DNA of 23,132 nucleotides from IMG/VR virus record IMGVR_UViG_3300045999_004194, positions 1 to 23,132 of that record; one strand, given 5' to 3'. Origin of the DNA: a virus. A program made the position numbers and the translations under genes. Of the stretch, positions 2,098 to 21,424 are shown one piece after another; within the stretch, counting starts at the first letter, position 1; the number at the start of each line of letters is the position of its first letter. The notes below the pieces were generated by a model. It was not told the origin of the DNA. It worked only from the letters and a program-made list of their open reading frames with translations, and did no database searches.

Positions 2098-2371
2098 AGA
2101 CGGCGTTAAAACATCCGTAGCCGAAGACGACGATGTGTCTTATCTGGAATTCAAGCCTGAACACGTGGTGCAGATGCCACCACAGGAGAAAGTCTGGGCG
2201 CAGATCGGTGATGATTTGAAACTTGCTCACATCGACTGGGACATCATTACAGCGATGGCGAATCAGTTTGACGAGAACCACCGGCAGGGTAAGCCCAAGA
2301 GTCAGAGCGAAGTGATGAGCAAGTTATTGGTCTTGGTGCGCGAAGAGACGAGAAAGGAGTGCGGTGCGTGA
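2081..2371 (+). CDS. Hypothetical protein in the glycosyltransferase cassette
   Basis: This 96-residue protein is not recognised. It is acidic at the N-terminus (VAEDDDVSYLEFKPEHV) and helical towards the C-terminus (SEVMSKLLVLVREETRKE), with no transmembrane segment or metal motif. The ATG at 2081 has AGGAG at 2069-2073 and overlaps the TPR-glycosyltransferase gene by 17 nt. Its stop shares GTGA with the next gene. Lying between two glycosyltransferases, it could be an accessory factor for them, but nothing in the sequence shows that. Confidence 0.75.
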   Translation: MIVQNKDGVKTSVAEDDDVSYLEFKPEHVVQMPPQEKVWAQIGDDLKLAHIDWDIITAMANQFDENHRQGKPKSQSEVMSKLLVLVREETRKECGA

Positions 2372-3036
2372 AGGTTTTTATCGGTTGGGATAGTCGTGAA
2401 GACATTGCATATCAGGTGTGCAAAGAGTCGCTGGCTAGAAACTCTTCCGAGTGGCTCGACATCAAACCAATCAAGCAACAAGAAATGCGTGAGCGTGGCT
2501 TGTACTGGCGGGAGCATGACCCGTTAAGCAGCACCGAGTTCTCCTTCACCCGTTTCCTCGTACCGTATCTTGCAGGATACAGCGGGTGGGCGCTGTTCAT
2601 GGACTGTGACTTTCTCTGGCGAGGAGATGTGGCAGGGATCATGGACTACGCTGACCCGAGTGTTCCTGTCATGGTGGTGCAGCACAGGTACAAGCCGAAA
2701 GAAACGACCAAGATGGACGGCGCGGTACAACACCAATACCCACGCAAGAATTGGTCGAGCCTGATGCTGTTCAACTGCGGCCACGAGAGCGTCAAGCAGG
2801 GTCTGACATTGGAGCAGGTCAACATCGGGACTGGGATGTATCTGCATCAACTCAAATGGGCAGGGACACACATCGGTGCGCTGCCGATTGCATATAACTA
2901 TTTAGAAGGATGGCACACGAAGAAGGACTGCCCCAATCCGGTCGCTGTCCACATGACGCGAGGCGGCCCTTGGTTTAAGGACTGGCAGAATGTTGAGTAC
3001 GCTGACGAGTGGTTGGCAGTAGCCAAAGAGATGTGA
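2368..3036 (+). CDS. GT-A type glycosyltransferase (GT8-like)
   Basis: This 222-residue protein starts with a Rossmann-like strand (MKVFIGWDSREDIAYQVC). It carries the metal- and nucleotide-sugar-binding DxD motif as FMDCDFLW, with Asp79 and Asp81. Later segments NCGHESVKQGLTLEQ and YNYLEGWHTKKDCPNP, and the end VAVHMTRGGPWFKDW, match the layout of small GT8-like or LPS-type glycosyltransferases in phages and bacteria, where a late histidine helps bind the metal. The GTG at 2368 was chosen because it shares GTGA with the upstream stop and has AGGAG at 2355-2359; a GTG three codons earlier at 2359 would lie on that site. It needs a nucleotide sugar. The acceptor (host glycan, phage protein or modified DNA base) is unknown. 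Confidence 0.8.
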   Translation: MKVFIGWDSREDIAYQVCKESLARNSSEWLDIKPIKQQEMRERGLYWREHDPLSSTEFSFTRFLVPYLAGYSGWALFMDCDFLWRGDVAGIMDYADPSVPVMVVQHRYKPKETTKMDGAVQHQYPRKNWSSLMLFNCGHESVKQGLTLEQVNIGTGMYLHQLKWAGTHIGALPIAYNYLEGWHTKKDCPNPVAVHMTRGGPWFKDWQNVEYADEWLAVAKEM

Positions 3037-3037
3037 C

Positions 3038-3829
3038 ATGAAACTAATCATGTGCTGCCAAGTGATTGAAGGCCGAGACTTTGAGAAGGACTTACGGTTC
3101 TCAATAGTTGCCGCTGCTTTTTGGAAGCGGGTTTATCCAGAAGGTAAAGTGTATGTGGCGACGAATGGCATAGATAGATTCCCTGACAAGTACAAGGGAC
3201 ACGTCAAGTTAATCCATTTTAATTTTGAGAAGTATTTACCGGCGTTTGGTCGAACTGTGTTCATGAACAGTTACGTTGCATCTCCTATGTTCGACAGCGA
3301 TACGGTGTTCGCAGGGCATGACGTTCTGTTTTTGAAACGGCTACCCAACATATCCACTCACTACAAGGTAGTAACTAACTACCGTTATCACCCCACGCAG
3401 CCGTATTGCAGCGACTTTCTGTGGGTACGAGATAAGAAGTACAGCATAGATATCATGCAAGAAGTGTATGACGCACATCGTTGGATGCCTGCTCCGATTG
3501 TGAATGGTGCAGGAGATCAGTTGGCCTACACGGTAGTGTTCGGTATGCCAGAGAAGGAACAGTTCAAAGCGGGTTGCGGTATTCAAGTGCCTAGGAAAGA
3601 CAACGTATACGCTTTACCTGCTGACGAATACTTGTTCACGCCATGTGATTACTTCACACCAACCTATGATCAGTTTGAAAAAGAAATGACGCCTAGTCCG
3701 TCATACGAACAAATGATGGCTACCAAGACGGCGCTGCACTTCAAAGGCAATCGCAAGGAAGATTTCTTTAGGTTTGGGCAGTGGGCACACGAGAACGACT
3801 ACGTAGACTTGAGCGTGTTGGAGAAGTAA
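3038..3829 (+). CDS. Probable glycosyltransferase-like protein
   Basis: This 263-residue protein begins one base after the preceding glycosyltransferase. It has a nucleotide-binding-like start (MKLIMCCQVIEGRDFEKDLRF), a strand with VYVATNGIDRFP and a possible DxD motif at MFDSDTVFAGHDVLF (Asp86, Asp88), followed by a second acidic site. A late TALHFKGNRKEDFFRFG segment places a histidine where GT-A enzymes often bind the donor phosphate or metal. These features suggest a diverged GT-A fold. The assignment rests on motif layout and on its neighbours, not on a clear family match. Its stop overlaps the next start by one base (TAATG). Confidence 0.55.
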   Translation: MKLIMCCQVIEGRDFEKDLRFSIVAAAFWKRVYPEGKVYVATNGIDRFPDKYKGHVKLIHFNFEKYLPAFGRTVFMNSYVASPMFDSDTVFAGHDVLFLKRLPNISTHYKVVTNYRYHPTQPYCSDFLWVRDKKYSIDIMQEVYDAHRWMPAPIVNGAGDQLAYTVVFGMPEKEQFKAGCGIQVPRKDNVYALPADEYLFTPCDYFTPTYDQFEKEMTPSPSYEQMMATKTALHFKGNRKEDFFRFGQWAHENDYVDLSVLEK

Positions 3830-6997: not shown

Positions 6998-7476
6998 TGG
7001 ATGACGAAACTAATGTTCCAAAAACATGGAACGAAGTTATTCACGGTGACGGTGGTCATTGCCCAGTTTGTCAGCGTTGGGGCAAAGTGTACGGACGTAG
7101 CATCAATAGAACGATGGCTAGGTCTCTGATTTGGTTGTGCAGATCATGGGTGGCGAACGCCCCTAAAGAATGGGTGGATGTGCCGAACACAGCACCCCGT
7201 TCAGTGATCCGCACCAATCAGTTGCCGACTTTGGCGTGGTGGGGTTTGGTGGAACGCTGCCCGAAGAACGATGTCAACAAGACGAAATACAGTGGTCTTT
7301 GGAGGCCGACTCAGAAAGGTTGGGATTTCTTTAGCGGAAAGATTAAAGTCCCTAGCAAGGTCTTCACCTACAATAACAGGGTGCAGAAATACGACGGGAA
7401 TGAAGTGTTTATCCATGAATGTTTTGACGACGGTTTTGACTATCAAGAAGTGATGCAGAGTAATTTTGATGATTAA
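6997..7476 (+). CDS. Conserved phage protein with CxxC and probable winged helix
   Basis: This 159-residue protein starts at an ATG overlapping the polymerase stop (TAATG), with GGAG at 6986-6989. It carries HCPVCQRWGK near residue 21 (Cys22, Cys25, with nearby histidines), which may bind zinc. The part from TMARSLIWLCRSW through LPTLAWWGLVERC to LWRPTQKGWDFFSG has the helix and wing order of a winged-helix DNA-binding fold, with the wing at the TQKGWDFF turn. Proteins of this kind recur in phage replication regions under hypothetical names. It may bind DNA near the polymerase or the nuclease that follows. The fold is inferred from pattern, not from a named family. Confidence 0.8.
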   Translation: MDDETNVPKTWNEVIHGDGGHCPVCQRWGKVYGRSINRTMARSLIWLCRSWVANAPKEWVDVPNTAPRSVIRTNQLPTLAWWGLVERCPKNDVNKTKYSGLWRPTQKGWDFFSGKIKVPSKVFTYNNRVQKYDGNEVFIHECFDDGFDYQEVMQSNFDD

Positions 7477-8122
7477 CTGGTCGTTCAGTAGTCTCAAGGA
7501 ATACTTGAACTGCCCAAAGCAGTACTACCACCTGAAGATTGCCAAGGACTACACGAAGAAAGTCACCCTAGAGATGTCCTACGGGACGGAAGTCCACAAG
7601 GCGTTGGAAGATTACGTCAGGGACGGTACGCCCCTCGTTAAGAACTATCAGCAGTATCAACCAGCGTTGGATGCACTGCTTGAGATACCGGGTCAGAAGT
7701 ACCCCGAACACAAGATGGCTTTGAACGGAGAACGTGAGCCGTGCGATTTTGATGACGAGAACCGATGGGTTCGCGGCATCGTGGACTTGTTGATTGTCGA
7801 TGAAGACAAGGCGTTTATTGTGGACTACAAGACTGGTAACAATAAGTACGCTGATTCAAAACAGTTAAAGTTGATGGCACTGATGACCTACGCGCACTTC
7901 CCGTCCGTCATGAATATCAAGGCGGGATTGCTCTTCATAACACGTAACTCGTTTGTGACTGAAGAATATGCGAGATCTGACATAAGTAAGTTGTGGGCAG
8001 AATTCTTGCCTAGCCTAGAGCGGTTGCGGTTGGCATACGAGAACAGTATGTGGCCCGCCACACCGAGCGGCTTGTGCGGATGGTGTCCCATTGATTCATG
8101 CAAGTTTTATCGGGAGCGTTGA
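7469..8122 (+). CDS. Cas4/RecB-like PD-(D/E)XK nuclease
   Basis: This 217-residue protein has the PDDEXK_1 (Cas4/RecB) layout: N-terminal SSLKEYLNCPKQY with Cys15, GTEVHKALEDY with His43, GIVDLLIVD with Asp106, FIVDYKTG with Asp119 and Lys121, and QLKLMALM. The C-terminal cluster CGWCPIDSC gives Cys203, Cys206 and Cys211, which with Cys15 would hold a 4Fe-4S cluster as in Cas4 and AddB. All the expected catalytic residues are visible. Family members degrade or trim single-stranded DNA ends. No CRISPR array or other cas genes are present, so a replication or recombination role is likely, not spacer capture. The ATG at 7469 overlaps the previous gene by 8 nt. Confidence 0.9.
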   Translation: MINWSFSSLKEYLNCPKQYYHLKIAKDYTKKVTLEMSYGTEVHKALEDYVRDGTPLVKNYQQYQPALDALLEIPGQKYPEHKMALNGEREPCDFDDENRWVRGIVDLLIVDEDKAFIVDYKTGNNKYADSKQLKLMALMTYAHFPSVMNIKAGLLFITRNSFVTEEYARSDISKLWAEFLPSLERLRLAYENSMWPATPSGLCGWCPIDSCKFYRER

Positions 8123-8123
8123 T

Positions 8124-8378
8124 ATGCCGTACGTGAACAAACCTCGTCCGTATAAGCACGAGTATAAAAAGCAGGTCGAGCGTGGCGAACATGATGACCG
8201 CATGGAGCGGCAGCGTGCGCGTCGTGGCTATGATAAAAAAGGTATTAGCCGAAAGGGTAAGGATGTTGCCCACGTCAAAGCACTGTCGAAAGGCGGTAGC
8301 AACGGTGACGGCACTCGGCTAGAGTCGCCAAGCAAGAATCGGTCGTTCCGTCGCAAGTCGAGCGGTGCGATGAAATAG
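8124..8378 (+). CDS. Small basic HNH-like protein
   Basis: This protein of 84 residues starts at an ATG with GGGAG at 8112-8116, one base after the nuclease stop. It is strongly basic, with a core reading DVAHVKALSKGGSNGDGTRL followed by KNRS, which resembles the HNH endonuclease core (first His at 50, a GGSN turn, and Asn72). The usual second catalytic His and the zinc-knuckle cysteines of larger HNH enzymes are missing. It may be a minimal or inactive HNH, or just a DNA-binding protein. Similar short proteins are common in aquatic phages. It is the last gene before a 178-nt non-coding leader. Confidence 0.65.
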   Translation: MPYVNKPRPYKHEYKKQVERGEHDDRMERQRARRGYDKKGISRKGKDVAHVKALSKGGSNGDGTRLESPSKNRSFRRKSSGAMK

Positions 8379-8556
8379 TCCCCATAAGGCGTGAGTGTGA
8401 GGGAGAAGAGTATTCCACTCAACTCTGCGGTACATGACAACCGCAAACCGCGTCAGTTGATGGCAAGCCCACGCGTGTTATATCCATGACACAGCCTCCA
8501 CCTTGAGCATCAACCGTCTAGCCCACGAGACGGGCTTTTAACTACAAAGGTAAGTT
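8379..8556 (+). other. Structured non-coding leader before the helicase gene
   Basis: No gene was found on either strand of this 178-nt gap, the longest in the + block. It contains several inverted repeats: TGCGGT at 8426-8431 with ACCGCA at 8440-8445 (8-nt loop), GTTGATG at 8456-8462 with CATCAAC at 8508-8514, and CCGTCT at 8514-8519 with AGACGG at 8528-8533. The last pair shares bases with the terminator-like stem at 8520-8536, so the two cannot form together. This layout resembles an attenuator or riboswitch-type leader. No known RNA family is recognised, and no tRNA cloverleaf was seen on either strand. Confidence 0.45.
8520..8539 (+). terminator. Terminator-like hairpin
   Basis: The stem AGCCC at 8520-8524 pairs with GGGCT at 8532-8536 across a 7-nt loop, followed by a T run to 8539. 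The stem is short, so termination may be partial. It lies 17 nt before the helicase start codon, leaving no room for a separate promoter after it. Confidence 0.55.
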
Positions 8557-10152
8557 ATGCAAATAGTAGAAGACACAGCAGTAAAGTTCAGTATCCCTAC
8601 AAAATTAGCAGATACGATCTATCAGAACGTCGAGAAGTGCGAGGTAGTTAGCGCCGCGCACAACGTCAAAGAATTGTTGCTCTACTGGGGGCATCAAGAG
8701 ATGCGCGTGGCTGCGGAGGTTATCGACGAGGCACAACCCAACGTCACGCTGCCTAAACTGCCATCGCCCATACTGAAAGAATACGACTGGCCGGGAATAC
8801 ATAAACCGTTTGATCACCAACGTGATACGGCTTCGTTCCTGACGCTGCGCCAACGTGCGTTCTGTTTCAACGAGGCGGGTACAGGTAAAACATCAGCGGC
8901 TATCTGGGCGGCTGACTACTTGATGAATAAAGGCATCATTAAGAAGGTACTTGTGATCTGCCCTCTGTCGATTATGTATTCAGCGTGGCAGGCAGACATA
9001 TTCAAGACCGCTATGCACCGCTCTTGCGGCGTGGCGTACGGCACGAGCAACAAACGCAAGAAGATTCTGGAAGAGAACTACGACTTCACGATCATTAACT
9101 ACGACGGTACGCACGTAGTCTTCAACGAACTGCTTGCTGCCAAGTTTGATCTGATCATCATTGATGAGGCCAATGCTTATAAGACGGTCAGCACTAAACG
9201 GTGGAAGACGTTAGCCAAGTTGATGACACCTGACACGTGGTTGTGGATGATGACGGGTACTCCTGCATCACAGTCACCGCTTGATGCGTTCGGCTTGGCG
9301 CGATTGGTCTCGCCCCAACGTGTGCCGAAGTTCTCTACAGCGTGGCGAGATAAAGTTATGTATCAGGTCAGCAGGTTCAAGTGGCTGCCCAAACATGACT
9401 ACAAACTGCAAGTCTTTTCGGCACTACAACCGGCTGTTAGATTCACCAAGCAAGAATGCCTTGATTTACCGACACTTACGTACCAAACGAGAATCGCTCC
9501 GCTTAGTGCTCAGGTAAGTAAGTATTACAAGACGCTCAAGAGTCAGATGCTGATTGAGGCAGCGGGGCAACAGATTTCTGCTGTCAATGCAGCGGCGTCG
9601 ATACAAAAACTTTTACAGATATCAGGCGGTGCGGTGTACACCGATAAGCATCAAGTAATTGAATTTGATGTCTCACCCCGTCTCAATATCTTGAAAGAAG
9701 TTCTAGACGAAACTACAAATAAGGTTGTAATATTCGTTCCGTACCTCCATACTATTGATGTGATCACGAAATTTTTGACTAACGAAGGACTGACGAGCGC
9801 GGTGATTCAAGGCTCGGTCGGTGCGAAAGAACGGTCAGTAATCATTGATCAGTTTCAAAAGATGGAAGATCCGCGAGTACTAGTGATTCAGCCTCAATCG
9901 GCAGCGCATGGCATCACGCTAACGGCTGCTGACACGATTGTGTTCTGGTCGCCAGTCATGAGTGTAGAGACATATTTGCAGTGCATTGGACGTATCGAGC
10001 GCGTTGGACAGAAGAACAAGATGACCGTGGTTCATCTGCAAGGTTCGGATGTTGAGCGCAAGATGTATTCGATGCTGCAAGGTAAGGTAGACAGTCATCA
10101 AAAGATAGTCGATCTGTACAAACAAGAGTTGGATGAAGTGGAGGAAGTGTGA
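8557..10152 (+). CDS. SNF2-type DEAD/DEAH helicase
   Basis: This 531-residue superfamily 2 ATPase of the SNF2/RapA kind uses ATP to translocate on or unwind DNA. Visible motifs are a Q-like DHQRDTASF region, Walker A NEAGTGKT (Lys111, Thr112), motif Ia (VLVICPLSI), the DEAH-box variant IIIDEAN (Asp203, Glu204), motif III MTGTP, motif IV-V QSAAHGITLTAADTIVFW and motif VI CIGRIERVGQ (Arg479, Arg482). Both RecA-like lobes are complete. Phages with family A polymerases often carry such a helicase. AAAGG at 8546-8550 serves as ribosome site. Its stop overlaps the next start by 4 nt (GTGA). It probably acts at the fork with the polymerase and primase. Confidence 0.93.
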   Translation: MQIVEDTAVKFSIPTKLADTIYQNVEKCEVVSAAHNVKELLLYWGHQEMRVAAEVIDEAQPNVTLPKLPSPILKEYDWPGIHKPFDHQRDTASFLTLRQRAFCFNEAGTGKTSAAIWAADYLMNKGIIKKVLVICPLSIMYSAWQADIFKTAMHRSCGVAYGTSNKRKKILEENYDFTIINYDGTHVVFNELLAAKFDLIIIDEANAYKTVSTKRWKTLAKLMTPDTWLWMMTGTPASQSPLDAFGLARLVSPQRVPKFSTAWRDKVMYQVSRFKWLPKHDYKLQVFSALQPAVRFTKQECLDLPTLTYQTRIAPLSAQVSKYYKTLKSQMLIEAAGQQISAVNAAASIQKLLQISGGAVYTDKHQVIEFDVSPRLNILKEVLDETTNKVVIFVPYLHTIDVITKFLTNEGLTSAVIQGSVGAKERSVIIDQFQKMEDPRVLVIQPQSAAHGITLTAADTIVFWSPVMSVETYLQCIGRIERVGQKNKMTVVHLQGSDVERKMYSMLQGKVDSHQKIVDLYKQELDEVEEV

Positions 10153-14638: not shown

Positions 14639-14816
14639 GTGGATCTTTCCCTTTCAAGGTATGGACGTTGGGGACTCGTTCTTCATCCCCACCGTCCGTC
14701 CAGCCGGTTTGATTTATATAGTAGACACTCGCGCCAAGGCACACGGCATCAAGGTGAAAGCCTATGCCGCGTCCAAGGATGGACACCTTGGCGTTAGAGT
14801 GTGGCGGGTGGCTTAG
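14616..14816 (+). CDS. Small conserved phage protein (VGDSFFIP type)
   Basis: This 66-residue protein starts at the ATG at 14616, inside the end of the primase gene. It has the pattern WIFPFQGMDVGDSFFIP, then a helix, then KVKAYAASKDGHLGVRVWRV. This matches a widespread small phage and prophage family of unknown function with a beta-helix-beta plan ending in a GVRVWR strand. It is the last + strand gene here. Its TAG stop at 14814-14816 overlaps the stop of the giant gene on the other strand. A TTG at 14610 is a less likely start. Confidence 0.8.
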   Translation: MEKLIEPEWIFPFQGMDVGDSFFIPTVRPAGLIYIVDTRAKAHGIKVKAYAASKDGHLGVRVWRVA

Positions 14817-17800
14817 AGCAGCCCCTCTTCCTCGTCCAAATCAGCCATGTATTCAGACGTAGCGATACGCAAGCTCCTTGGCTGGAACACTCCACCAACT
14901 GCTTGTTGAGCACGGCGCTCACGTTCTTCGTAAGATTTGCGGAGAGTGCTGCCCTTAATACGATAGGCAGGATTGGCATCGTTGAATGAACGGATGTCAT
15001 CCATCGCCTTCTCCACCGCTTCTGCGTTCCCCGCCTTCCGTGCCGCGTACAAATTAGTCAAAAGAGCAACACGGCGATTCTTTAATTTTTCGCCAATTTG
15101 GTAAGTCGCACCACGTTGAGACTGCGCCACGGCCAGATCTGCCGGGGCAAAGCCTAGTATCTGCATCATGGAGTTGTAGGCGCTAACGTCCTCAACGATA
15201 GGCAAACCATCTCTAGTTAAAGCACCTTCTATACCGTATCGCATAGCCTTTAGCGGGTTACGCAGGGGTGCAGGAAGAATTGCTTCAAATCCTCGTTGTA
15301 TATCTCCTTCAGCGAAGTCGTTGAACCCACGTCGCGCTGCCTCAACAAGGCCGTACGTCGGACCTGCAACACGCTCAAGCACGTAGATTGGTAAACCAAC
15401 CTCGGCTAACCGTTTCGGATCATCGCGCCACAGAAGACCGTAAAAGCCCGTTCTGGAACCGATGTCTACATTAAGCAACTCGTTGATTGGGCCATTCAAG
15501 CCCAACGTGCCTACCGCATCAAGTACTTCTTGCTCAAGATCGTACGGCTCGTCATCGTCACCCATGAGCATCGACGCAAGCACCTCGGCTGCACCGAAGA
15601 GCGGCAAGCCTTTGATACCCGCCAACATATACGTCGAACCAAAAACATACAGCAGTTTCTTTCTGGCGATTGAGCGCAGCAATTTACGGTTGGCCGCGTT
15701 TGGTTCGTTAGCATTGATCTTCTCAACCGCCTGATTAAACGTCATGGCAAGGTTGATGATCATGTTCAGAGCGTGGGTTCTGAACGTTAACACAATACGA
15801 CCGATATCAGTTTGATATAGACCGCTGTTAGTTTCAGGCAGCGTAGCGCCGTTCACGTCATAGTTTAGACGGATGGCGTCTTCGGTTGCTCTGCCGACAC
15901 TTGCCTGCCCTCGGTTCGGATCAAACTTCTGCCCGTTAGCGTCGATGTTACGAGCCAACATATAGGCAGCGAGCGCCGTGACCTCACGGTTCATACGCTC
16001 CGAACTACGGAAAGCGTAACTCATCACAAGGTTTGCTTTGGCGCTTAAACCCTCGTAGCCGGGCACGTTAATGTTCTGCGCCTGCTGTAATTCTTGTTCA
16101 GCCGACGTACCCGTGACCGAGCGCATCTCAAGCATACGATGCAGTTGAGCAAACTCCTGCATATGCGGAGCGGTCTGATTCTGCATTCCGTTACCAAAAG
16201 ACGGGTTCTGATTAAACGTCAACTTACCCGTAGCCGGGTCGCGGAACGCATTACGGAAGAACATCCCCATTGCCTGCGACACAGCCCGACTCGCATTGAT
16301 AACGCCATACTTGGCGGCAAGAGTAGGCCAAGCCATCATGGGGATGATGGTCGTATTAATAAGCGCAGACGAAATGTTCAACGCAATACTGTAAATGTAG
16401 TTTGCCTTGGACAACGTATAGACGTAGCCCGAATAGAACGGGTTTTTGGCAAACCTGATTCGGTCTTCGACTTCGCTTTGCAGGTCACTTACGTAATCCG
16501 TACTAAGTTCAGGCAAACCCGCATACTGAGGATTTGGTAAGTTGTTTGCACCGCGTTTATTGCCAATGTAAGTTTTTAGTTGTACGTTAATTTTCTCTTT
16601 AACTTTCTCAAGCGGCATCGTGTACTTCATCGCGTTTATGCGATAGAGCATCCTCGGCACGGAGGACTCGTACACACCAACCACATCTTCGTTATAGCCA
16701 AGACGACCGTAATAAGTAACTCCGTTGAATACCCACGTTTGACGAGAACTCATGTCTTGTCGCAGGTCGTTTCCTGCCGAACCCGGCATGTAATCTACAA
16801 AGGTTTCAAAAATTATTCGTTGGGTATCGTTAATAGTTTGCGTAGAGGCATTAACAGCACTCAGTGCCTCTGCCACATTGTCACTGAGTTCTTTCAGCAA
16901 GCCGGTCGGCGGTCGTCCATTTTCGTACGTATTCTCTCTGATGATAATTGGTTCATCAGACATACCCACTCCGCCTGCACGGGCGGCTTTTTCTTTACCT
17001 ACTTCCCACGCCGCTTTACTTTCGTAAAACTCGCTTACATCTTTGGCGTCTGGAGTTTTATAAGTTAGTTTGTACGTGCCTTCACGACGCAGCGGCAAGT
17101 AATACTTCAGGCGTTTGCCTTGATACTTGGTGCGGATCGCAGCCACTACGTTAGGCGGCAGTACATTCAGGAACTGTTCCAACTTGGCTTGGAACGCAGT
17201 ATCGCCGTACCTACGATAGTCGCCAAATACATCCGCCACCATTGCCTGCATATCGGCAGGGAGCGCTGAGAAGTCTTGCACCGCCTTGTGCAGTACCTTG
17301 TCCTCTGGAGACAGCGCGTTGTACGCGGCGCTATTCGCAGGGATACCACGCATCCTCTGGATCACTGCCTGATCAGGAACAAAGCGCAGGAAGTTACCTC
17401 TGTTATCTAACTGCTCGGCAAGCAACGGGGTCTGCGAAATATTGATGTCGTTAGCTAGTTGGTTGAACGCATCAATAAATCTAGGATTGTTACGCAAGAC
17501 CTCACGGTACTTAAACGCTTTCTTCTCATGTTCAACCATGAGATCCGAGGCGTCTTTAGCCATGCGCTCGACGAGGATGTTAAGACGACGGAAGGCAGGC
17601 GCATATTTCTCATACAACTGCATTAGGTGATGCAGAGAGAACGTGCTGAGCTTGAAAGAACGCATCCGACTAGGAAGGTTATCCAAGGCGTTGATGTTGC
17701 CTTCCAGAATCTCCTTCGTCGCGCTTGGCGCACCGCTCTGAACCCGACGCATGGCATCGGTTAATATCTTTCTGTGTTTCGCTTTCATATAGCGGATGTT

Positions 17801-20800
17801 GTCCTGACGCGGGACAAGCTGAGTCCTTCCGCTAATGACCATGTTGTGCGCTTGCGTGATGATGTCAGTCACTTCGGTGTTGCTGTAGGCAAGGTTCTTG
17901 CCCACCAACTGACTAAGCGCACGAGCAAACTTACGGATCAAGGCCGCCACGCGATTGAACGCGGCACGCCACTTCATGTTCTGGATCGGGCCAGCCTCGG
18001 ACATTTCCGACAGGATTTCTTCTACTGCCAGCGCACGACGCTCATCCCGTGTGAACTGCGACTCAGGATACGTGTTCGGGTTCTCTTCAAGCCACGCATC
18101 GGCATCGGCTTGGATAGCACGGTTGCTGTTGTAGATATCGAGCATGACTTTGAAAAGCTGCTCACCAAACAACCGTGCAAGACCGTAGTGACCAAGGGAT
18201 TCGTGGAATACCGTGGCTTTCAGATCCCGTGGCGAACGCACGTTATCAGCGATGATGTAGACATCATTGCCAATCGAGATACCGATAGAGTCTGCATACG
18301 TTTCAGGATCAGCCCCTTCTATCGACGGCAGGTCAAGATAACTTTGTACAACAACAAAGTTAGGTGGGTTGCGCCAACCGGAGATGATGTTACTAACTAG
18401 AGTCCTGACATTGTCAGCACTCATCCCGATTGTTTCGCTACGGAGCTTCTGGAATCGGGCACGGCTGCGGCGATCCTTGAAGTCAAGTGGGCGGTACTTT
18501 TCGTAGTCAAACGTATCGAGGAAGTCAGCCTCTTCATCGAGGACTTTCTGCGTGTCGTCGAAGTACGGCTCGGTAGTTTCTACCTCACCTTCTTCATCAC
18601 GAGAAGCGATCTTGTCCAACTGCTTACGCAGTTTCTTGAAGTTAGGCTCGCGCTTCTTTAGTTCTGCATTGATTCTGCCAACTTCATCAGCAGACATTTT
18701 CCCTGAGCGAAGTAAGAATCGACCGGTCTCCAATATGGAGTCGATCATTTTTTGTTGCACAGAACTACGAACGACGGGAGCCTTACCACCCACAAGATCA
18801 AGAGCGCCCTGACCCTCAACAGTGCCTGCTTGTTCAGCCTCTAACGCAGCAAATGCGCGACGAACTTCATCACTCAGGACGCCCTTGGGAACACGGGCGA
18901 CGGTAACTTTAGGTTTGGCAGGGGCGAGTTCTGCGGCTCTGTCTGCCTCACGCTGAATACGTTCGGTCTCAGATACAGCGCCCTCTCCAAGCAATCTACC
19001 TGTGGCACGCTGCCGCGCCTCTTCAAGACGTTGCTCAGCAAAGTAGCTATCAAGCATCTGAGGCGGCAAACCACTCTCGGTAGGCGCACCTAGTCCTTCA
19101 AGGACACCTTCAGTAGACGGCTGAACAGCTTGATCTAATTCTTTACGAGTAAAAGTTACAGATCCATCACTGTTAACTATTTTATTAAAATTGTTCTTTA
19201 AGTTTTTACGTGAAAGCGCACGTAAATTGTTAACTGCTTTTGGATTTTTAAATGTTACTTGTTCAATCGCTCTTGGAGCAATCAAATCAGTCATGTACTC
19301 ACGGCCACCGGCAACACCGGTACCGGGCTTAGCTTTCTCTAAACCACTAAGCGAGTTTGGACGGAACTTGACCGTTACTCCACGGTTGCCACCCTGACCA
19401 ATAGCCAGTGCAGGATCATCAGTTACATAAGTATTTAACGGGAAAAACTGACCAAGAGAGTCATCGCGCAAAAGACTGTCAACTCCCATATCGTTAGTTT
19501 CTCGATACAGTGGTTGGTTTTCCGCAAGTACTTTTCTATTTTTATCAAACTTTATTTGGCCGAGTCCAAATGCACTACGCCCTTCAATCGCATCTACTCT
19601 TGGAAATTTTCCAGTTTCTAATGCAGCGGGTACATCTCCTTCTCGGTCATCAACCCGTTCAGTAACGTCGCCAGTAGTATCCAGTCCTGCGCCTCTAGCT
19701 GGAGGAGTACCGAGTTCTCCGGTTGGCGGTCCCAATGTAAACAGGTCAGTGCCTCTTCCACCTGCTCCACTGTCAGTCTCTGTAGTAGTAACTGTTGGGC
19801 CTGATACATCGGTAGCCTCCGGCTCAGCGGCAGCCTCGGTAGTAACGACTCTAAACTTATTACCTTTCTGCTCAACGATCCCCTCGTCCACAAACTGCCG
19901 CATCAACGCAGCAGCTTTAGGTTGATTGAGTCCGGTCGCTTGGGCAACTGCTTTAATAGTCGGGCTTATCTTAATGACTTCAAGAGCCAACTCTCGCGGG
20001 GTCGGCTCAAACATCTCACCGGGGATACCACTCTCGGTAGGCGCACCAAGCCCACCAAGTATGTCCTCATCACCCATCAACCGCTCACCCTGCTGGAACT
20101 CTAGACCAGCACGAGCTTCATCACTGGGCGGGAATAAGTCTTCTTCTACTCGCTCTTCAGGTGGGAAATAAGGGGCACCTTCTCCCTCTTCACGAGGCGC
20201 AAGAGCTTCTGCCTCGGCAGCTTCACGCAACGTCTGTGCACTGTATTGACGACGCTCTGCCTGAACAGCCTCACTTTCTAAACGAGCTTCACGTTGTTCT
20301 GGTTCTTCAAGAAGTTCGTAAGGAATACCGCTTTCAGTAGGACGCGTAAGCAAACTACGAGCAATATCATCGCTCTCACGGCGTCGTGCCTGTTCAATAA
20401 GTTCACCGGGTATGCCGCCCGTACCGATATCTGACGGACCAAACAGACTCTCTTCAATCTCAGCACGTTCTCTTTCGGCAGCGAGAGCTTCCGCCTCTGC
20501 CTTCAACCGCGCATCTTCAATTTCTTTAGCTTGGCGTGCCTGCTCACCACGATAGGCACCATACCCACCGACAGCGCCAAATCCACCGCCAAGCACCGCC
20601 GCGCCAATCGCAGCCTGCTTAAATTCTTCTTTGGCTTCCTCGTCCGACAGAGACAGACCAGCCTGCCATCGCTCCAAAGCCTGTTGAGCAATTTCTTGTG
20701 GGACTTCAAACGCAACGCCAAGACCAACGCCCTTAACGACGTTACCTTTCAGGGACAGATTCTTACTAGCAAAAGCATCGGCAAGCACATCGGCAGCACG

Positions 20801-21424
20801 CTTTGACGCGGTGCCTTCAGCCATGAGTCCTTGCGCCAGCGGGAACTTGCTTAACCCACGTAGGATTAACGCGCCGGGAACAACATCTAATGCAGCCTGT
20901 CCAGTGGCTGCGGCAGCAGCCTTACCAAGCGATAATTCAGGAATGGCTTCGCCTGCTTCAGCAGCAGCCTGTTGTTCTTCAGCCTGACGGCGTAGGTTTT
21001 GGATGCCGTACTGAGCGCCACTAGTTGCAGCAAAACCCGGTATACCGCCAACAACACCAGCACCAAGAGGTGCAACCAACGCACCAAGCGAACCACCAAG
21101 TAGTTCTTTGAAGGCTTCCCAGTTCTCACCCTTACCGAACCCGCCAACTGACTTGTACTTGGACTCAGCAGCCTTAAGGAAAGCCTTGCGGTTTTCCTCT
21201 GTGGGATTGGCAGCGAATGCCGCAGCCTCGTCCGTTAAACCAAGCGTAGTAACAGCGTCTTTAAATGCGCCAGTAAAACCCGCCTGTTCTTTGGGGGGTT
21301 GTAGAGCGCCAAGATACCGGTCTTCTAATTCACGATAAGCGGCGGCTAACTTTGTAGCCGCTTCAACATCCCCAGCCGCATCTGCTCTGCGTAACGCAGT
21401 AGCAATTTGAGCAAGCGTATACAT
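14813..21424 (-). CDS. Giant polyvalent virion protein (2203 residues)
   Basis: The start (MYTLAQIATALRRADAAGDVE) is typical of phage ejected proteins. Then come glycine/alanine-rich, possibly membrane-active stretches (about residues 105-300), an acidic linker region with PTESG repeats, a probable winged helix (476-524, TIKAVAQATGLNQPKAAALM), an ADP-ribosyltransferase-like domain (about 635-725, LYRETND with Arg641, YVTDDPALA, GGREYMTD with Glu709), a metallopeptidase-like HESLGH (His1074, Glu1075, His1079) with a possible third ligand at EEILSE (1135-1140), long helical regions, and a C-terminal part (about 1678-2190, ALINTTIIPMMAW and LRNPLKAMRYGIEGALTRDG) resembling LPD38. This fits the polyvalent proteins packaged in the virion and delivered to the host. 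AAGG lies just upstream of the ATG, two bases after the previous gene. Confidence 0.87.
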   Translation of the reverse strand: MYTLAQIATALRRADAAGDVEAATKLAAAYRELEDRYLGALQPPKEQAGFTGAFKDAVTTLGLTDEAAAFAANPTEENRKAFLKAAESKYKSVGGFGKGENWEAFKELLGGSLGALVAPLGAGVVGGIPGFAATSGAQYGIQNLRRQAEEQQAAAEAGEAIPELSLGKAAAAATGQAALDVVPGALILRGLSKFPLAQGLMAEGTASKRAADVLADAFASKNLSLKGNVVKGVGLGVAFEVPQEIAQQALERWQAGLSLSDEEAKEEFKQAAIGAAVLGGGFGAVGGYGAYRGEQARQAKEIEDARLKAEAEALAAERERAEIEESLFGPSDIGTGGIPGELIEQARRRESDDIARSLLTRPTESGIPYELLEEPEQREARLESEAVQAERRQYSAQTLREAAEAEALAPREEGEGAPYFPPEERVEEDLFPPSDEARAGLEFQQGERLMGDEDILGGLGAPTESGIPGEMFEPTPRELALEVIKISPTIKAVAQATGLNQPKAAALMRQFVDEGIVEQKGNKFRVVTTEAAAEPEATDVSGPTVTTTETDSGAGGRGTDLFTLGPPTGELGTPPARGAGLDTTGDVTERVDDREGDVPAALETGKFPRVDAIEGRSAFGLGQIKFDKNRKVLAENQPLYRETNDMGVDSLLRDDSLGQFFPLNTYVTDDPALAIGQGGNRGVTVKFRPNSLSGLEKAKPGTGVAGGREYMTDLIAPRAIEQVTFKNPKAVNNLRALSRKNLKNNFNKIVNSDGSVTFTRKELDQAVQPSTEGVLEGLGAPTESGLPPQMLDSYFAEQRLEEARQRATGRLLGEGAVSETERIQREADRAAELAPAKPKVTVARVPKGVLSDEVRRAFAALEAEQAGTVEGQGALDLVGGKAPVVRSSVQQKMIDSILETGRFLLRSGKMSADEVGRINAELKKREPNFKKLRKQLDKIASRDEEGEVETTEPYFDDTQKVLDEEADFLDTFDYEKYRPLDFKDRRSRARFQKLRSETIGMSADNVRTLVSNIISGWRNPPNFVVVQSYLDLPSIEGADPETYADSIGISIGNDVYIIADNVRSPRDLKATVFHESLGHYGLARLFGEQLFKVMLDIYNSNRAIQADADAWLEENPNTYPESQFTRDERRALAVEEILSEMSEAGPIQNMKWRAAFNRVAALIRKFARALSQLVGKNLAYSNTEVTDIITQAHNMVISGRTQLVPRQDNIRYMKAKHRKILTDAMRRVQSGAPSATKEILEGNINALDNLPSRMRSFKLSTFSLHHLMQLYEKYAPAFRRLNILVERMAKDASDLMVEHEKKAFKYREVLRNNPRFIDAFNQLANDINISQTPLLAEQLDNRGNFLRFVPDQAVIQRMRGIPANSAAYNALSPEDKVLHKAVQDFSALPADMQAMVADVFGDYRRYGDTAFQAKLEQFLNVLPPNVVAAIRTKYQGKRLKYYLPLRREGTYKLTYKTPDAKDVSEFYESKAAWEVGKEKAARAGGVGMSDEPIIIRENTYENGRPPTGLLKELSDNVAEALSAVNASTQTINDTQRIIFETFVDYMPGSAGNDLRQDMSSRQTWVFNGVTYYGRLGYNEDVVGVYESSVPRMLYRINAMKYTMPLEKVKEKINVQLKTYIGNKRGANNLPNPQYAGLPELSTDYVSDLQSEVEDRIRFAKNPFYSGYVYTLSKANYIYSIALNISSALINTTIIPMMAWPTLAAKYGVINASRAVSQAMGMFFRNAFRDPATGKLTFNQNPSFGNGMQNQTAPHMQEFAQLHRMLEMRSVTGTSAEQELQQAQNINVPGYEGLSAKANLVMSYAFRSSERMNREVTALAAYMLARNIDANGQKFDPNRGQASVGRATEDAIRLNYDVNGATLPETNSGLYQTDIGRIVLTFRTHALNMIINLAMTFNQAVEKINANEPNAANRKLLRSIARKKLLYVFGSTYMLAGIKGLPLFGAAEVLASMLMGDDDEPYDLEQEVLDAVGTLGLNGPINELLNVDIGSRTGFYGLLWRDDPKRLAEVGLPIYVLERVAGPTYGLVEAARRGFNDFAEGDIQRGFEAILPAPLRNPLKAMRYGIEGALTRDGLPIVEDVSAYNSMMQILGFAPADLAVAQSQRGATYQIGEKLKNRRVALLTNLYAARKAGNAEAVEKAMDDIRSFNDANPAYRIKGSTLRKSYEERERRAQQAVGGVFQPRSLRIATSEYMADLDEEEGLL
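19070..19090. repeat. In-frame 21-nt direct repeat, copy 1
   Basis: This is a perfect copy of the 21 nt at 20027-20047, read on the - strand as GAPTESG at residues 779-785 of the giant protein. The copies are 957 nt apart, which is 319 codons. Confidence 0.85.
20027..20047. repeat. In-frame 21-nt direct repeat, copy 2
   Basis: This is the second perfect copy, encoding GAPTESG at residues 460-466. Weaker protein-level relatives are at 362-366 (PTESG) and 337-342 (GIPGEL). The two exact copies bracket the winged-helix and ADP-ribosyltransferase-like segment. Confidence 0.85.

Follow-up and report, generated by a model that had tools for sequence, protein, structure and literature searches.

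The DNA immediately upstream of a phage helicase gene is, as far as sequence comparison can tell, a copy of a structured RNA class that is common to many uncultured phages. The window examined here is a 23,132-nucleotide stretch of viral DNA (IMG/VR record IMGVR_UViG_3300045999_004194, positions 1–23,132), and the RNA occupies positions 8379–8536 within it. We are nearly certain that the class is a real one. Its role is harder to assign; the leading explanation, to which we give a probability of roughly 0.45, is that this is a self-contained phage noncoding RNA that may act mainly independently, in trans.

The RNA lies in an intergenic gap that runs from a stop codon at 8376–8378 to the helicase start at 8557. 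No open reading frame of at least 50 codons was found on the plus strand within this gap (8379–8556), and a minus-strand frame of 72 codons overlapping its first part (8228–8446) is probably spurious. The protein encoded directly upstream is very basic, belongs to PHROG 4590 (function unknown), and presumably contains an HNH-like pattern; its cluster also supplies the upstream gene in 46 of the 85 members of the RNA class. Gene neighbors of the RNA in the window include those for a DNA polymerase A, a PD-(D/E)XK nuclease, the SNF2 helicase, and a DUF927 protein. Three open reading frames precede the polymerase (925–2097, 2359–3036, and 3038–3829), the first of which reads like a TPR protein by eye, and all three of which, also by eye, might be glycosyltransferase related. 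A minus-strand open reading frame of 2203 codons (14813–21424), running against the replication genes, perhaps encodes a large virion protein.

Table 1. Features of the RNA and of its flanking genes in the window
Feature	Position	Strand	Remarks
Small basic protein gene	8124–8378	+	ATG at 8124 (gene-calling tool: TTG at 8091); stop directly before P1
P1 hairpin	8379–8404	+	TCCCCA (8379–8384) with TGAGGGA (8398–8404), one bulged A; loop holds the 5′ pseudoknot strand
Pseudoknot 5′ strand, GGCGTG	8388–8393	+	Flanked by conserved loop letters TAA and AGTG
P2 hairpin, TGCGGT/ACCGCA	8426–8445	+	Size and sequence vary across members
Pseudoknot 3′ strand, CGCGTC	8449–8454	+	Conserved AAC before, conserved A (8455) after
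P3 stem, GTTGATG/CATCAAC	8456–8514	+	Distal part pyrimidine rich, CCTCC at 8495–8499
Rival stem, CCGTCT/AGACGG	8514–8533	+	In window, not conserved: 42.1% of cells paired, shuffles 44.1%
3′ (T) hairpin, AGCCC/GGGCT	8520–8536	+	Seven-base loop, ACGAGAC
Helicase ribosome-binding site, AAAGG, and ATG	8546–8559	+	Read from sequence
Helicase gene, SNF2/DEAD-like	8557–10152	+	Pfam SNF2-rel_dom E 1.2e-16, Helicase_C E 2.2e-16; PHROG 62, DNA helicase

In the fold (Table 1), the loop of P1 forms six base pairs with positions 8449–8454, downstream of P2; the result is an H-type pseudoknot whose third loop contains a hairpin. A lone A links this pseudoknot to P3, a long stem presenting a pyrimidine loop (CUCC/CUUUC), and a short linker then leads to the 3′ hairpin. 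The latter reads CCCC-CGTAA-GGGG in many homologues, and its loop is commonly CGUAA or GGAAAGAC.

The fold was scored in an alignment of 30 diverse members (A1), in which 23 pairs in four helices gave 657 cells. Of these cells, 93.6% were paired, compared with 72.9% in shuffled alignments and 32.7–44.7% when slid. Both-sided changes were seen in 19 of the 23 pairs, and each of the four counted helices contained compensatory change. P1 was paired in 83.3% of its cells, with all six counted pairs changed on both sides; the corresponding values were 97.1% and all seven pairs for P3, and 93.1% and all four counted pairs for the 3′ hairpin. P2 aligned too poorly for its pairs to be counted across members. 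Neither P1 nor P3 was part of any search pattern used, and an all-against-all scan of the columns of 85 members recovered P1, the pseudoknot, P3, and the 3′ hairpin unaided, with two pseudoknot pairs among the top covarying columns. The sequence-only reading of this locus had staked itself on covariation and a conserved leader in related phages, and both were found.

Support for the pseudoknot was drawn from two sets free of search bias because two of the search patterns included its strands and the member-collecting scripts required complementarity. The first set consisted of the window and 37 loci fetched through the helicase. All six pairs formed in 38 of 38 sequences, with 11 strand combinations (among them GGCGTG/CGCGTC, GACATG/CATGTC, GGCGCA/TGCGTC, and AGCGTA/TGCGCT), the partner strand in this count having been picked by best pairing with a bonus for its flanks. 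When the partner was instead chosen by its flanks alone (AAC...A/T), a single candidate was present in 25 of the 38 sequences, pairing at 6 of 6 positions, and two or three candidates were present in the other 13, one of which always paired at 6 of 6. The second set was found by the 3′ hairpin alone, 173 occurrences of which were reduced to 81 nonredundant sequences with enough upstream sequence. The full architecture was present in 19 of the 49 sequences with the usual loop motif (0.05 expected from mononucleotide shuffles) and in 10 of the 32 without it (0.0 expected, likewise from mononucleotide shuffles); three of these ten (L255, L259, and L375) are near the standard form. Others of the ten have strongly divergent yet complementary pseudoknot strands, among them GCTAGGG/CCCTAGC (L273), GCCGG/CCGGC (L300), and GCTAG/CTAGC (L390). 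The 52 of 81 hairpin-fetched sequences that failed this strict architecture test include evident relatives that carry a single mismatch (CTTGTC for CATGTC in L309 and L318) and others in which the 3′ hairpin has a different context.

The 3′ hairpin (CGACTRRCCCCCGTAAGGGGYY-like or GACACCCCGGAAAGACGGGGA) was also seen without a convincing P1–P3 RNA (L428–L431, L325, and L266). In Xanthomonas phage f20-Xaj, such a solitary hairpin separates two genes; in phage FoX2 it is close to tRNA genes, and in the assembled phage ct7L0027 it immediately precedes a gene for tRNA-Met. The 3′ hairpin may be a separate phage RNA module.

A protein search of IMG/VR with the helicase supplied 80 loci, the best 80 of 570, many of which carry, ahead of the helicase, a loop like TAAGGCRYGAGTG, AACCRYGTC further on, and then a long stem and a short 3′ hairpin. 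A covariance model built from A1 (R1) gave strong matches (E no higher than 7.3e-8) in the window, in 37 of these best 80 of 570 helicase loci, and in the bacterial contig L133; ten of the 30 model sequences came from the helicase loci or from window relatives therein, and their own matches to R1 thus follow by construction. Three further helicase loci matched weakly (E 0.045–0.099); L077, a weak match, looks like P3 and the 3′ hairpin without P1. Strong matches were absent from 43 of the 80 loci, some of which, such as L021 and L043, end early upstream. Pattern scans of viral contigs returned 49 and 96 contigs, which may recur among scans, and two 3′ hairpin patterns returned at least 120 and 69 contigs, not all of which contain the RNA. 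The 180 collected hits were reduced to 84 distinct ones after removal of a few short ones and of three chance matches (L122 at 834, L132, and L221), the latter before members were chosen. Together with L028 and L029, these made up 86 sources, in which R1 gave 85 matches and L091 fell below the cut-off. Exactly one copy was present in 29 of the 31 records searched; two helicase relatives had none.

A scan with Rfam models, a check suggested by the sequence-only reading, supplied no identity: in Rfam 15 the window matched no family at or above its curated score, and when E-values were relaxed, it matched only a snoRNA, well under the cut-off of that family. Nothing was matched in nine further loci, and in seven more only tRNAs and a subthreshold sar match were. 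Among isolate phages, blastn with four of the RNAs returned short weak matches or matches of 21–23 bases to the 3′ hairpin only, and a 35-base hairpin query returned matches of 21–25 bases only. Six phages with a related helicase gave no R1 match, a search whose empty result shows little, and relaxed folding before the 3′ hairpin of four isolate or assembled phage records yielded no convincing full member.

The RNA is rare in bacterial genomes, where we found contig L133 and the variant L252. The first pattern hit four contigs of bacterial genomes, of which only L133 matched the model; the L131 genome gave a single match at E 0.5, and among 80 genomes around the bin of L133 one matched, L133's own. 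Weak matches were obtained in 3 of 369 Gammaproteobacteria (L251, L252, and L253). Those of L251 and L253, confined to the 5′ part, look like chance. That of L252, in a gammaproteobacterium, lies in the 3′ part and follows a Mu Gam gene (Pfam E 3.4e-43); by our own reading, this locus plausibly carries a 5-bp pseudoknot variant. On L133 (1–4373, minus strand), the RNA is flanked by a small secreted-looking gene and an epimerase-like gene, and repeated elements resembling CTTGCAT...GCAAG surround it. This contig was binned as Actinomycetota, yet it carries a UmuD-like gene and other content unexpected there, and by its content it looks like a contig from another bacterium.

The loop of P3 and the sequence upstream of P1 offer clues to function. 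CTCC occurs in 64 of 80 P3 loops (15.7 in shuffles, maximum 27) and CTTTC in 38 of 80 (4.7 in shuffles); enrichment of CUCC could stem from protein binding or from shared ancestry. With the consensus ribosome-binding site UAAGGAGG, the loops pair at −7.5 kcal/mol, compared with −5.3 kcal/mol for shuffled loops. They showed no preference for the ribosome-binding site of their own locus: in 29 nonredundant members, own pairs averaged −7.17 and swapped pairs −7.86 kcal/mol, with 4878 of 5000 swaps at least as strong as the own pairing (kinship being ignored), and tests on 48 and 57 members went in the same direction. Loops shuffled in place even paired more strongly with the own site than the real ones did (−7.73 versus −7.18). 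Sequestration in cis by an anti-Shine-Dalgarno loop thus finds no support in any of the three sets (57, 48, and 29 members), since own pairs are not stronger than swapped ones. In 21 of the 85 members, the sequence upstream of P1 contains a promoter that matches the consensus at 10 or more of 12 positions, against 0.45 expected from mononucleotide shuffles; the −10 box ends between −7 and +2 of P1 in 13 of these 21. The window reaches no more than 7 of 12, and its RNA is therefore probably read from upstream.

The genes around the RNA vary. Among 22 RNA-bearing records, chosen mostly because the next called gene was not the helicase, 13 have the helicase and nine, including a 45-kb record (L116), have no detectable relative of it; in L026, one of the 37 strongly matching helicase loci, some 4.7 kb separate the RNA from the helicase downstream, and its neighbor is another gene. 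These observations, together with the 37 strong matches among 80 helicase loci, mean that helicase control cannot be the general role of the RNA. The proposal of a leader ahead of the helicase was right as to a conserved, covarying RNA structure in that position and too narrow as to what it controls. In the L116 record, the RNA follows a gene of the phosphoadenosine phosphosulfate reductase family (PHROG E 1.1e-49), and the next called gene begins about 260 bases past it. In the L125 record, it follows a hypothetical gene, and after it come a long hairpin with a T-rich tail and, from about +270, a chain of minus-strand frames. Members at a distance from the helicase differ in strength: L026, L104, and L133 score 72–102 bits (L104/L116 count as high), and the weak members L110, L124, L125, L162, and L201 score 26–30 bits, with P3 unrecognised in L110, L124, and L162. 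Two divergent members, L273 and L275, sit immediately ahead of DNA polymerase A genes (Pfam E 4.8e-49 and 8.9e-50), single-strand-binding families occur 0.2–0.6 kb upstream of L390 and L369, and L421 follows a Pam3 gp34-like gene of unknown function; these neighbor readings of divergent members leave out L375, L389, L274, and L260, whose placement depended on an overly short string. In L138, L145, L148, L161, L167, and L217, the space between the RNA and the next gene holds a further hairpin and then GGTCTGT- or TGCAT-like letters and GGAG.

The sequence-only reading had proposed a transcription attenuator with two mutually exclusive stems. Its repeats are all present in the window, namely, GTTGATG (8456–8462) with CATCAAC (8508–8514), CCGTCT (8514–8519) with AGACGG (8528–8533), and AGCCC (8520–8524) with GGGCT (8532–8536); the first two stems have base 8514 in common, the last two are mutually exclusive, and TTTT follows the 3′ hairpin. 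Across members, however, the stem CCGTCT/AGACGG pairs no better than in shuffles (Table 1), and L020 and L106, which share the 3′ hairpin type of the window, retain only four of its six pairs. A simple rule recognised the 3′ hairpin in 59 of the 85 members, and 16 of those 59, the window and some close relatives included, carry a U-rich tail (five or more U among the eight bases that follow). An intrinsic-terminator attenuator was rejected on both counts, although the U tract is there in the window; the attenuator reading fails because its rival stem is not conserved and U-rich tails are infrequent, which leaves it a very slim chance, and the RNA does not look like a terminator/antiterminator switch for the helicase. 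Weak termination at the 3′ hairpin of the window and at those of some close U-tailed relatives could still occur. Folding of 8379–8556, a check suggested along with the attenuator, gave a z of −1.90, with 8 of 200 shuffles folding at least as well, which by itself is weak support; the other strand of these 178 bases folded no better than shuffles (z of −0.68), and a scan for terminator-like sites in 7400–9400 (2 found, 1.6 expected) was uninformative.

As a noncoding RNA lodged between phage genes, often those of the replication region, the molecule would be transcribed either from a promoter of its own close to P1 or within an operon transcript, and would act in trans, probably by contacting mRNAs through the exposed, anti-Shine-Dalgarno-like CUCC loop or, alternatively, through a protein bound to the pseudoknot; no terminator/antiterminator switch for the helicase would be involved. 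We favor action in trans because of the copy number, the change of neighbors, and the loop test. A bolder form of this idea, in which the P3 loop imitates the 3′ tail of 16S rRNA (CUCC, in some members CUCCUUUC) and a large superfamily binds Shine-Dalgarno sequences in trans and redirects translation, seems doubtful to us. Possible, if tentative, is a cis-acting regulatory leader, in which the pseudoknot/P3 RNA would bind a phage protein or small molecule and set the translation or stability of the downstream message. It gains support from how often the RNA directly precedes one particular gene: in 63 of 85 members, the helicase is the next gene called, and in more it comes after one inserted gene or was miscalled by the crude gene finder. 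The start codon lies a median of 25 bases past the 3′ hairpin (57 members), and away from the helicase, too, a gene often starts shortly after this hairpin; L273 and L275 hold the same position before DNA polymerase A genes. Such placement is expected of a leader and speaks against action in trans, as do the low scores (26–30 bits) of several members away from the helicase and the position of L091 below the cut-off. A cis leader, in turn, fits poorly with the distance to the next called gene in L116, with the T-tailed hairpin and minus-strand frames that follow the RNA in L125 (a weak member), with the 43 of 80 helicase loci that have no strong match (some of them ending early), and with the indifference of the P3 loop to its own ribosome-binding site.

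Two other roles seem improbable. An antitermination or mRNA-processing element on the nascent transcript, like the HK022 put RNA or an RNase site, would suit the usual position of the RNA between codirectional genes, as well as the occurrence of the 3′ hairpin between genes without convincing P1–P3, as in Xanthomonas phage f20-Xaj; however, in weak members of the L091/L125 type, a long T-tailed hairpin and minus-strand frames follow, where read-through would be unhelpful. Slightly less probable still is an RNA of the replication origin that serves as a primer or forms an R-loop, as ColE1 RNA II does. Such a role would explain both the single copy per genome, seen in each of the 29 positive records, and the location among replication genes (helicase, DNA polymerase A in L273 and L275, and the single-strand-binding families near L390 and L369). 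On the other hand, the RNA lies off the extremum of cumulative GC skew in two long records (a weak test; in G007 the maximum is about 6.5 kb away), and the L125 record has no obvious replication genes nearby.

Far fewer noncoding RNAs than proteins have been described from phages, and a few known elements invite comparison. The leader of T4 gene 32 contains a pseudoknot that regulates its own gene in cis. Like it, the RNA described here places a pseudoknot upstream of a phage DNA replication gene; unlike it, it adds P2, P3, and the 3′ hairpin and is not tied to one gene. In the T4 gene 32 type, moreover, the gene product binds its leader, whereas the present RNA is known from its sequence alone. 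The preQ1-III riboswitch is an H-type pseudoknot with an inserted hairpin, and the likeness to it and its kin extends to a hairpin loop that pairs downstream and an extra hairpin inside the last pseudoknot loop, but no Rfam 15 covariance model matched the window or the further loci tested. HK022 put is an antitermination RNA made of stem-loops; both it and the RNA class described here are structured phage RNAs, put belonging to early operons, but put is not known to contain such a pseudoknot. ColE1 RNA II is a replication primer and R-loop RNA. Our RNA is new as a family within structured phage RNA, set apart by Rfam 15 and, in the literature, by titles and abstract openings, among which no description of such an RNA was recognised. 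Comparative genomics of metagenomes has yielded candidate classes of structured RNA from uncultured sequence (PMC2864571), and our class was likewise discovered by comparison of uncultured sequence; it may overlap with candidates of that study outside Rfam.

In sum, the class is a defined object for experiments, with four covarying helices and, as a rule, a single copy per genome across many uncultured phages; a candidate variant (L252) stands beside a Mu Gam-like gene in a bacterial genome. Action in cis would make the RNA a new pseudoknot regulator of replication genes. If, as we favor, it acts in trans, it would give phages a common way to control host or phage genes, one that gene-centered annotation has missed.
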